From contig CACKZT010000009.1 of NCBI GenBank assembly GCA_902604695.1, positions 1-39,636 of the forward strand: 39,636 bases of DNA, in the 5' to 3' direction. Position 1 is the stretch's first letter. The number at the start of each line of letters is the position of its first letter. Shown here piece by piece: positions 32,779-35,747 of the stretch. The notes under the pieces were generated by a model, which saw nothing but the letters and a program-made list of their open reading frames with translations, was not told the DNA's origin and made no database searches. A program made the translations under genes and the position numbers. The DNA is from an uncultured Pelagibacteraceae bacterium (GTDB lineage: Bacteria; Pseudomonadota; Alphaproteobacteria; Pelagibacterales; Pelagibacteraceae).

Positions 32779-32800
32779 TTTAATAATATAAGCACATAAA

Positions 32801-32834
32801 AAAATAGGGCAAGTAGTTAAACTCGCCCTATTTT
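32801..32834 (-). terminator. Intrinsic terminator downstream of proteorhodopsin
   Basis: AAAATAGGGC at 32801-32810 pairs exactly with GCCCTATTTT at 32825-32834; the stem can extend inward with one mismatch. On the minus strand the stem is followed by a run of T residues, the best match to a classical rho-independent terminator in the window. It starts 16 bases after the proteorhodopsin stop codon and separates it from the ferredoxin gene. Confidence 0.85.
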
Positions 32835-32849
32835 AAAAGATTGTTCTAA

Positions 32850-33620: not shown

Positions 33621-33848
33621 GAAAACCTCCCTCGTTGTTAGTTTTCTACTCAGTTTAATATATTAAACTACTCAAATAATGATTTACTCTTCATTCCCTG
33701 AGTAACTTGGCCGAACCATAATGAAAAATAAAGTTACAGTGAAGCTTTTTTTTTGTTAAAAAGTGTTGATTTTAGCGGATTTTCTATTTTTTTTTGGGGA
33801 TAATTGTGAAATAGTAGCTTTAAATTAACATTTCGGAGGAGGAGTGAT
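33621..33848. other. Divergent intergenic region between proteorhodopsin and acyl-CoA synthetase genes
   Basis: At 228 bases this is the longest non-coding stretch in the window. It contains the strong ribosome-binding sites of both flanking genes (GGGAGG for proteorhodopsin, GGAGGAGG for the synthetase), the 18-bp palindrome, several TACTC/GAGTA repeats and a T-rich tract at 33747-33755. I could not fix -35/-10 boxes with confidence; GATAAT at 33799-33804 is a possible -10 box for the synthetase. No small open frame or RNA gene stands out. Confidence 0.6.
33652..33669. promoter_or_regulatory. Perfect 18-bp palindrome in the proteorhodopsin control region
   Basis: AGTTTAATATATTAAACT equals its own reverse complement over all 18 bases and lies 31-49 bases upstream of the proteorhodopsin start. 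TACTC repeats stand at 33647, 33669 and 33685, and the inverted pair TTACTC (33684-33689) and GAGTAA (33700-33705) lies just beyond. The arrangement suggests an operator for a dimeric regulator, possibly overlapping the promoter, but an A+T-rich palindrome may also arise by chance. Confidence 0.5.
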
Positions 33849-35747
33849 TTGAGTCAAAAATACAAAGAAATCTACGAGTCATCGATAAAAGATAAAGAAA
33901 ATTTTTGGAAAAAAATTTCTGAGGAGATTTTTTGGTATAAAAAACCAAGTAAAATTTTAAATTCCAGCAATCCTCCTTTCTATAAATGGTTTGAAGACGG
34001 TATTACCAACACTTGTTACAACGCTATAGATTTTCATATCGATAAAGGAAGAGGAGATAAGCTTGCAATAATTTATGACAGTCCGATTACAGGTGTTCAA
34101 AAAAAAATTAGTTATAAAGAGTTAAAAGAAAAAGTTTCTTTATTTGCTGGAGCATTAAAAAATCAAGGTGTAGGAAAAGGAGATAGAGTTATTATTTACA
34201 TGCCGATGATTCCTGAAGCTGTCATAGCTATGTTAGCTTGTGGAAGAATTGGAGCAGTTCATTCCGTTGTTTTTGGAGGTTTTGCTGCAAATGAGTTAGC
34301 AAGTAGAATAGATGACTCGAAGGCAAAATTAATTGTTTCAGCTTCTTGCGGTTACGAACCAGGAAGGACAGTTCATTACAAACCACTAGTGAACAAAGCT
34401 TTAGACCTTTCAAAACATAAACCTAACAAATGCATAATCTTTCAAAGAGAAAAAGATAAAGCAGAATTAAATCCTTCTATGGATATAACATGGGAAGATT
34501 CTCTTAAAAACGCTAAACCTACTGAATGTGAAAAAATGAATGCAAATGATTATGCTTACATTTTGTATACCTCTGGTACTACTGGTTTACCAAAAGGTAT
34601 TGTAAGAGATATTGGTGGTCACATTGTTGCATTGAAATGGACAATGAAAAACATCTACAACATTGAACAAGATGATGTTTGGTGGTCTGCTAGCGACATT
34701 GGATGGATCGTTGGACATTCTTACATTGTTTACGCTCCACTTTTTTATGGTTGCACTACAGTTTTGTTTGAAGGAAAACCAGTAGGGACCCCAGATGCTG
34801 GAGCATTTTGGAGAGTTATCTCTGAACATAAGGTAAAATCTCTCTTTACTGCTCCTACGGCAATTAGAGCAATCAAAAAAGAAGATCCTAATGGAGATTT
34901 TTTTAAAAAATATGATTTAAGCAAATTTGATAAACTTTTTCTTGCTGGAGAAAGAGCTGATCCAGATACTATTAAGTGGTTTGAAAAACTTTCAGGTTCT
35001 CCGGTTATTGATCATTGGTGGCAAACTGAAACAAGTTGGGCAATAACATCAGACTGTACAGGTATAGAGTCTTTCCCTGTTAAATATGGTTCAGCATTTA
35101 AACCGGTTCCAGGTTATGATTTAAAAGTTCTAAACTCCGATGGTAAAGAAGTAGGCCCAGGGAAAATGGGCGATATTGTAGTTAAGCTCCCTCTCCCTCC
35201 AGGTACTTTTCCAACTCTTTGGGGTGCAGATAAAAGATATAAAGAAAATTATATGTCTACCTACCCAGGTTATTATTTAACTTATGATGCGGGGCACATT
35301 GATGAAGATGGTTATGTTTGGATTATGTCCAGAACCGATGACATAATAAATGTTGCAGGACATAGACTGTCCACCGGAGCAATTGAAGAAGTTTTAGCAG
35401 AACATAAAAATGTTGCTGAATGTGCTGTCCTTGGAATAGCTGATAAACTTAAAGGTCAATTACCTATTGGACTTCTTGCTTTAAAAGCAGGAGTAACTAA
35501 AGATAAAAAAGAAATAATTTCTGAATGTGTAAAAATGGTTAGAGATAAAGTGGGTCCAGTTGCTGCTTTTAAAATTGCAATTGTAGTCAAAAGACTTCCT
35601 AAAACAAGATCAGGGAAGATATTAAGAGGAACTGTAAGGAAAATAGCTGACAATGAACCTTATAAGATGCCAGCTACAATTGATGATCCAGCTATTTTAG
35701 ATGAAATCAAACAAGACTTAAAAGACAATAATATTTTAAAAAGTTAA
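33849..35747 (+). CDS. prpE: Propionyl-CoA/acetyl-CoA synthetase (PrpE-like)
   Basis: An AMP-forming acyl-CoA synthetase of 632 residues that activates a short-chain acid such as propionate or acetate with ATP and CoA. The AMP-binding motif YTSGTTGLPKG and HWWQTETSWAIT are typical, and the C-terminal lysine motif is RLPKTRSGKILRG. SCGYEPGRTVHYKPLV and LAGERADPDTIKW resemble PrpE/ACSS3 more than AcsA, so propionate is the better guess. The start is the TTG at 33849, chosen because a very strong GGAGGAGG ribosome-binding site lies just upstream and the nearby GTG runs at once into a stop. It is divergent from proteorhodopsin. Confidence 0.88.
   Translation: MSQKYKEIYESSIKDKENFWKKISEEIFWYKKPSKILNSSNPPFYKWFEDGITNTCYNAIDFHIDKGRGDKLAIIYDSPITGVQKKISYKELKEKVSLFAGALKNQGVGKGDRVIIYMPMIPEAVIAMLACGRIGAVHSVVFGGFAANELASRIDDSKAKLIVSASCGYEPGRTVHYKPLVNKALDLSKHKPNKCIIFQREKDKAELNPSMDITWEDSLKNAKPTECEKMNANDYAYILYTSGTTGLPKGIVRDIGGHIVALKWTMKNIYNIEQDDVWWSASDIGWIVGHSYIVYAPLFYGCTTVLFEGKPVGTPDAGAFWRVISEHKVKSLFTAPTAIRAIKKEDPNGDFFKKYDLSKFDKLFLAGERADPDTIKWFEKLSGSPVIDHWWQTETSWAITSDCTGIESFPVKYGSAFKPVPGYDLKVLNSDGKEVGPGKMGDIVVKLPLPPGTFPTLWGADKRYKENYMSTYPGYYLTYDAGHIDEDGYVWIMSRTDDIINVAGHRLSTGAIEEVLAEHKNVAECAVLGIADKLKGQLPIGLLALKAGVTKDKKEIISECVKMVRDKVGPVAAFKIAIVVKRLPKTRSGKILRGTVRKIADNEPYKMPATIDDPAILDEIKQDLKDNNILKS

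Follow-up and report, generated by a model that had tools for sequence, protein, structure and literature searches.

Hairpins located a few nucleotides from the 5' end protect ompA-type mRNAs, as in the E. coli ompA and papA and the B. subtilis aprE leaders. SAR11 proteorhodopsin (PR) is one of the most common light-harvesting genes in the ocean, in a group with few regulators. In the open-licence literature we found no account of how SAR11 PR expression is set and, at the level of titles and abstracts, no report of the PR leader. For Ca. Pelagibacter ubique, a 2009 survey (PMC2704228), which targeted long gaps of relatively high GC content, gives candidate structured RNAs (rpsB, rhtB, pntA, SAR11_0636 and others); 'rhodopsin' appears nowhere in its main text, nor inside a word. 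Here we analysed a stretch of 39,636 nucleotides (the window) from an uncultured Pelagibacteraceae bacterium whose genome comprises 815,218 bases and is an estimated 78.6% complete. An earlier note had described the gap between PR and an acyl-CoA synthetase gene as a control region, and a possible operator, shared by the two genes. We consider its repeats to be the template of a structured PR leader (Table 1), for which constitutive mRNA protection and translation tuning is the likeliest role that we infer; we give this reading a probability of roughly 0.6.

Table 1 Features of the PR-synthetase gap and its flanking genes in the window. Basis denotes the evidence on which each assignment was made.
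Feature	Position	Strand	Basis
Proteorhodopsin (PR) gene, 256 aa	32850..33620	-	ORF and translation
Predicted 87-nt PR mRNA 5' leader, start 33707	33621..33707	-	start transferred from G182 spacing
P3, hairpin around ribosome-binding site, GAAAACT (33646-33640)/GGTTTTC (33627-33621)	33621..33646	-	
Shine-Dalgarno sequence GAGGGAGG of PR	33626..33633	-	
P2, zero-spacer perfect palindrome AGTTTAATATATTAAACT	33652..33669	-	kept as palindrome in relatives
P1, 5'-terminal hairpin, stem TACTCAGG..TTTGAGTA	33669..33704	-	covariation and half-swap folding
-10-like element TATGGT of PR promoter	33715..33720	-	fixed distance from CTTC
-35-like element CTTCAC of PR promoter	33739..33744	-	conserved block in genus
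Conserved block, probable synthetase promoter	33788..33819	+	identity 0.85 vs 0.724 (PR four-fold sites)
-10-like GATAAT, probable synthetase promoter	33799-33804	+	kept where PR elsewhere
Propionate/acetate-CoA ligase-like synthetase gene, TTG start	33849..35747	+	NCBIfam

The name PR follows the call of the earlier note and a reading of the protein sequence, to which NCBIfam assigned no family. For the synthetase, the top NCBIfam score was that of propionate-CoA ligase, under its cut-off, and the cut-off of the acetate-CoA ligase subfamily NF001208 was passed. The gap of 228 nt between the two genes is the longest, as had been claimed: it exceeds every other upstream gap of 25 nt or more among those determined for 21 window genes. 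Between PR and a ferredoxin gene, an inverted repeat AAAATAGGGC..GCCCTATTTT (window 32800-32838) is probably the PR terminator. A half copy of it, ATAGGGCAAGC, lies between the ferredoxin and synthetase genes in three genomes (G024, G085 and G094) in which PR is absent from that place.

The repeats listed for the gap are there: the perfect 18-bp palindrome, + strand copies of TACTC at 33647, 33669 and 33685 (spacings of 22 and 16), and GAGTA at 33700-33704. A palindrome this long has p = 0.002 (500 shuffles of the 70 nt before PR), and palindromes of at least 16 nt occurred in 8 of 2000 shuffled 80-nt leaders. TACTC over the whole window is at chance level (51 seen, 51.06 expected), with four copies inside the gap. 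The boxes at 33669-33673 and 33700-33704 make up the basal part of P1, a hairpin, and the TACTC/GAGTA boxes at 33647, 33669, 33685 and 33700 are identical in 1, 37, 3 and 8 of 65 aligned leaders, respectively. The proposal that they are protein-binding sites was rejected, since two are not kept in relatives and two are the arms of P1. The inverted pair TTACTC/GAGTAA at 33684-33705 exists as described, but its half at 33700-33705 had been paired with a copy that relatives do not keep. This pair could form a second hairpin competing with P1 in the window genome; the GAGTA copy at 33685-33689 of that possible hairpin is identical in just 3 of the 65 leaders. In the alignment across SAR11 that had been suggested as a check, the palindrome is kept as a palindrome but not by its letters, and two of the four TACTC/GAGTA boxes are not kept.

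PR is present in 113 of the 151 genomes of our genus sample. Among the first 70 distinct loci, 64 have PR and the synthetase head to head across a gap of 221-237 nt; of the other six loci, contig ends or misreading account for three, and in the remaining three PR is located elsewhere. In other genera, with one locus of misread start (L157) excluded, the head-to-head pair with a 199-219-nt gap was found in 36 usable loci (7 in g2, 26 in g4, and one each in g10, g13 and g14), and it was not seen in three g3 loci. The genus alignment (64 loci) contains a synthetase-side block, the block CTTCACTGTAAC, the palindrome and the PR ribosome-binding site. The gap is conserved and holds control elements for both genes, and the earlier note was right to this extent. 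The synthetase block and the PR promoter block each have a mean pairwise identity of 0.85, the palindrome one of 0.891 and the last 15 nt one of 0.979; the P1 stretch reaches only 0.598, compared to 0.724 at PR four-fold degenerate sites. As to gene content, 36 of the 38 genus genomes without PR are also without a close copy of the synthetase, their best match being at the level of a distant paralog or fragment. Genomes lacking both include two at 93-98% completeness (G134 and G150), and two genomes without PR keep the synthetase (G017 and G125). It seems that the two genes are gained or lost as a pair.

In order to place the elements relative to the mRNA, we used the promoter spacing and a published start site. 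The CTTCAC and TATGGT elements are separated by a spacer of 18 nt, and CTTC with TA at +24 is found in 137 of 139 leaders (groups g1, g1x, g2, g4 and g14). Table 2 of Hou et al. 2016 (PMC5069720) lists a bacteriorhodopsin transcript of HTCC7211 at 529616-530457, tenth by start-site reads. In genome G182, the PR ATG is at 529690 and the stop ends at 530457, the glcB start is 162 nt after the listed 61961, in agreement with the paper, and the positions of hupA and acpP are also consistent with that list. Because these coordinates agree, G182 is presumably HTCC7211, and the listed first base, 529616, presumably the start site. In G182 this start is 74 nt before the PR ATG, 7 nt after TATTTA (the -10 equivalent) and 5 nt before P1; it was obtained by mapping an environmental sample to one strain, and we moved it to the window by alignment. 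The palindrome would then sit at about +39 to +56 of the predicted window PR mRNA, inside the transcribed leader, and a promoter operator is therefore not supported. Leader length was 66-97 nt among the 137 leaders analysed.

Three genomes in which PR does not adjoin the synthetase (G024, G085 and G094) separate the elements of the two genes. There, PR diverges from a gene that we interpret as phytoene desaturase (an amine oxidoreductase by Pfam), which is followed by a squalene/phytoene synthase gene; longer reads of G024 and G085 give a lycopene cyclase gene next, and in G024 also a beta-carotene dioxygenase. ATP synthase genes are on the other side of the relocated PR, with subunit C confirmed in G024 and G085, and with the G094 assignment made from a similar reading frame only. 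A perfect palindrome precedes the relocated PR in all three (AGTTTAATATTAAACT twice and TATTTATTAATAAATA once), together with a recognisable CTTC block. In the 220 nt upstream of the synthetase, the same three genomes have no palindromes of at least 8 nt and G071 has a single 8-nt one, while GATAAT is kept in the three and is not clear in G071. The palindrome and the CTTC block thus belong to PR, and the GATAAT block belongs to the synthetase; the palindrome does not travel with the synthetase, and the shared operator has to be given up. PR proteins encoded beside carotenoid and ATP synthase genes (L084, L085 and L086) carry Leu in the motif ITVPLxM and the window PR carries Gln, at the green/blue tuning position.

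The structure of the leader was examined with an alignment of 65 leaders (A1), which gave the helices P1, P2 (the palindrome) and P3, the named structure having 22 pairs; A33669 is common to P1 and the palindrome. Of the cells of this structure, 94.1% pair compared to 89.0% in shuffles, two-sided changes are found in 75 cells compared to 19.5, and the covariation score of the whole structure is 0.205 compared to 0.131, with 0 of 500 shuffles reaching the observed value in each case. Partners slid along the same alignment as a control pair in 34-56% of cells. The covariation support comes mainly from P1. Pairing holds in 97.3% of the cells of its outer helix, where 5 of 6 pairs have both-sided changes, and, as aligned, in only 72.0% of those of its inner helix; in P2 as well as in P3, 4 of 6 pairs are invariant. 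P3 has G-C in place of A-U in L047 and L048, and L049 and L050 keep AAAAAC/GTTTTT if shifted one column. The octamer that overlaps the Shine-Dalgarno sequence, CGAGGGAG (33627-33634), is unchanged in 63 of 65 leaders. Mean z of P1 was -3.57 against mononucleotide shuffles (121 distinct segments, from 137 leaders), and its own halves fold better than the mean of chimeras with swapped halves in all 121 segments. With starts set by promoter spacing, 2-5 unpaired nucleotides precede P1 in 112 of these 121 segments (range 0-6). Eight whole leaders folded singly gave z values of -1.29 to -4.11, that of the window being only -2.10. The P1 and tree sets exclude g3, g6, g10 and g13, whose leaders are not clearly of the PR form; the palindrome, P1 and tree sets exclude four truncated or misread loci (L010, L067, L070 and L157), a duplicate (L001), identical leaders and distant rhodopsins; and the set used for promoter spacing and P1 also excludes L094 and L103, where the promoter spacing was not found. 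In seven g2 leaders (L144-L146 and L193-L196), the P1 region holds GAGGGAGA, which resembles the downstream ribosome-binding site.

When 34 loci from other genera were searched with a model derived from A1, the leader was recovered in 27 with E below 0.001; the seven loci with no match to this model are in g3, g6 and g10. In 22 whole genomes, the sole matches below E 0.3 were PR leaders, in 17 genomes, and in the other five PR is lacking or distant. This search scored 150 of roughly 1,400-2,800 first-look candidates per genome, and weaker relatives could be missed. The leader as a multi-gene RNA class in its exact PR form was rejected, the model strongly matching PR alone. Compared with Rfam (Rfam 15), the leader has no family at the gathering score, and the one sub-threshold match in the gap lies on the opposite strand, at chance level (E 0.72), so that a known RNA family was also rejected.

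We favour a protective, translation-tuning leader because a hairpin of free sequence lies near the 5' end as in ompA-type mRNAs and because SAR11 PR, according to a statement in PMC3090418, is constitutive and unchanged by light. We found nothing for the suggested link of the gap to light. In the favoured reading, transcription would start at about 33707 on the minus strand and P1 would fold within a few nucleotides, its letters being free to vary while pairing holds, with P2 directly after. An A-rich stretch would follow, and then P3, holding part of the ribosome-binding site. P1 and P2 may shield the 5' end from RppH and RNase E, and steady, high translation may be set by the A-rich tail together with a weak P3; the result would be constitutive strong PR expression. 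The synthetase would use its own promoter at the opposite end of the gap. RNase E/G family TIGR00757 and RppH family NF001938 were found above cut-off in all four genomes searched (that of the window and three relatives).

The palindrome might instead be a DNA operator of a dimeric transcription factor, acting inside the leader as a roadblock or by repression, with P1 incidental. We consider this improbable, although P2 has the dyad symmetry of such a site. Of 102 distinct genus leaders, 95 have a perfect palindrome of at least 16 nt, six have one of 14 nt, and in one (L113) it is broken. The centre is self-complementary in 136 of 137 leaders, L113 being the exception, and on the PR tree it takes the forms TATA, ATAT, AATT, TTAA, TA and ATATAT with at least 13 changes of form; the tree of the 137 leaders is a quick one with 43 of 134 inner branches weakly supported, and fewer changes are forced when only its strong branches count. 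Such symmetry is not needed for a hairpin. When all 16 AT centres of the 16-mer are compared, hairpins with an asymmetric centre are equally stable or more so (up to -6.1 kcal/mol compared to -4.8 to -4.9 kcal/mol for symmetric ones), whereas homoduplex energies are -23.0 to -24.5 kcal/mol for symmetric and -12.6 to -19.1 kcal/mol for asymmetric AT centres. Since hairpin energy does not explain the symmetry, DNA symmetry or RNA-RNA pairing are left as readings of the centre. The arms AGTTTA..TAAACT are likewise kept, in 93 of 100 genus leaders and in all 26 of g4.

Other properties of P2 do not fit an operator. The half-site spacing is 2, 4 or 6 bp, the last only in the genome of the window, and the arms change together to TATTTA..TAAATA in L051 and differ in other lineages. 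The genus has one-sided arm changes in six rows with GGTTTA..TAAACT, which is a G-U wobble in the sense RNA, and in the broken L113; g2 has four G-U changes and three T-T mismatches. Palindrome sites are without excess over control, both in the own genome (7 vs 8) and summed over 16 genomes (18 vs 16). A global regulator was rejected on these counts, and a regulator with a single site stays possible; with the variable spacing and the lack of excess sites, a fixed site for the dimeric regulator that had been envisaged is not supported either. Finally, an operator leaves the covariation of P1 unexplained.

An unlikely alternative of another kind is that the leader is a sensor (a riboswitch, an RNA thermometer or the target of a small RNA) that opens or closes the ribosome-binding site in P3. 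P3 does include part of the Shine-Dalgarno sequence. The predicted probability of the P3 C-G pair is 0.53-0.96 depending on genus and temperature, with the Shine-Dalgarno sequence unpaired at 0.32-0.60, and the predicted pairing of P2 in the genus drops from 0.91 to 0.66 between 10 and 37 C. However, P1 and P2 have no conserved unpaired aptamer core, Rfam has no family for the leader at its gathering score, and PR of SAR11 is reported constitutive in PMC3090418. P3 pairing and Shine-Dalgarno exposure are also predicted to be nearly constant from 10 to 37 C: the unpaired value goes from 0.44 to 0.48 in the genus, from 0.32 to 0.35 in g4 and from 0.59 to 0.60 in g2. A thermometer was rejected on this prediction, even though P2 weakens.

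It is also conceivable, if quite unlikely, that the palindrome is an RNA dimerisation site by which two leaders pair and shield their 5' ends. The symmetric centres are by far the best homoduplex and yet not the best hairpin, and palindromes of the zero-spacer type recur close to the 5' ends of further top mRNAs of SAR11. An in-line hairpin would compete with dimerisation. We know of no general RNA-dimerisation device of this kind in bacteria.

The recurrence was looked at in several gene sets. When the first 41 nt of 25 listed HTCC7211 start sites were folded, PR was the strongest (-18.0 kcal/mol, z -5.03) and yhdW the second by z (-2.49); the yhdW leader has a plan like that of PR, a hairpin and then a perfect palindrome TTATTTGTTAACAAATAA. 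Upstream of yhdW, an amino-acid transporter binding protein gene, loci L271 and L274-L352 have a hairpin, a zero-spacer palindrome mostly around GTTAAC, and a ribosome-binding site. The longest zero-spacer palindrome there is at least 14 nt in all 75 distinct SAR11 loci, a count made without a shuffle control and excluding L353, duplicates and loci with too little upstream DNA; in L316, L337 and L345 it is the upstream hairpin instead. For potD, with the set being the best 30 of 53 genomes with a match and duplicates dropped, a palindrome of at least 10 nt was found in the last 32 nt in 21 of 23 distinct loci, compared to 107 of 2300 shuffles. By reading of the rows, 17 of these loci have CGTTTAAACG, three have ACGTTAACGT and one has CGATTAATCG; some rows also contain an A/T run close by that exceeds the palindrome in length.

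In a set of 13 HTCC7211 leaders that contains PR and yhdW, the lengths of the longest palindromes add up to 124, compared to a mean of 67.4 and a maximum of 92 in 1000 shuffles. Palindromes of at least 10 nt are in 8 of the 13, while amt, hupA, groS, acpP and PB7211_1146 have at most 4 nt. These are 13 of the 25 published start sites; the other 12 were dropped for being leaderless or under 13 nt, long (glcB and atpD), or unclear in start (atpC). Leader lengths were set by hand, that of PB7211_130 from its Shine-Dalgarno sequence. In G182, the potD, tauA, opuAC, PB7211_641 and PB7211_298 leaders have perfect palindromes of 10-14 nt from +1 or +2, and that of PB7211_130 has one at +10 (among loci L245, L247, L249, L253, L254 and L256). 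Palindromes are without general excess in the 21 window genes (sum 166, shuffle mean 151, reached by 47 of 500 shuffles), and a habit of all SAR11 genes was rejected on that basis. We treat the recurrence as a lead and not as proof, since expression governed the choice of the start-site list and the pattern was tested on the genes in which it had first been noticed.

One conjecture to which we assign a low probability is that SAR11 marks its top mRNAs (PR and periplasmic binding proteins such as yhdW and potD) with short zero-spacer palindromes near the 5' end, which may let leaders pair or may be recognised as symmetric DNA by a single protein of broad specificity. The sequences would be gene-specific with symmetry kept by coordinated changes, and paired leaders may shield 5' ends in tiny cells. 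If true, this would be a class of expression signal absent from the literature searched; the recurrence, if confirmed genome-wide, would hint at a general signal. Very improbable, lastly, is that the symmetry is mutational, with template switching perfecting any palindrome without function: perfect palindromes of differing sequence do recur at one place, but the adjoining P1 hairpins retain mismatches, bulges and open loops, and the 21 window genes have no general palindrome excess.

The structured PR leader, as a conserved element with a published start site, is concrete and testable, and it suggests why PR is expressed strongly and without a light response. Like the candidates of PMC2704228, it is a SAR11 leader or intergenic RNA found by comparison. 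The conserved core of a riboswitch is not present: the loop and stem of P1 are hypervariable, and what is conserved are the arms of P2, the linker and the Shine-Dalgarno region. With the palindromic operators of dimeric regulators the PR palindrome has dyad symmetry in common, and it differs from them in its variable half-site spacing, its lack of site excess and its position inside a transcribed leader. Unlike in the ompA, papA and aprE stabilisers, the PR hairpin directly precedes a zero-spacer palindrome and a ribosome-binding-site hairpin, and its stabilising effect is one that we infer. Like them, it lies within a few nucleotides of the 5' end with its pairing kept and its sequence free, in a genome that, as in the setting of ompA-type stabilisers, encodes RNase E and RppH.
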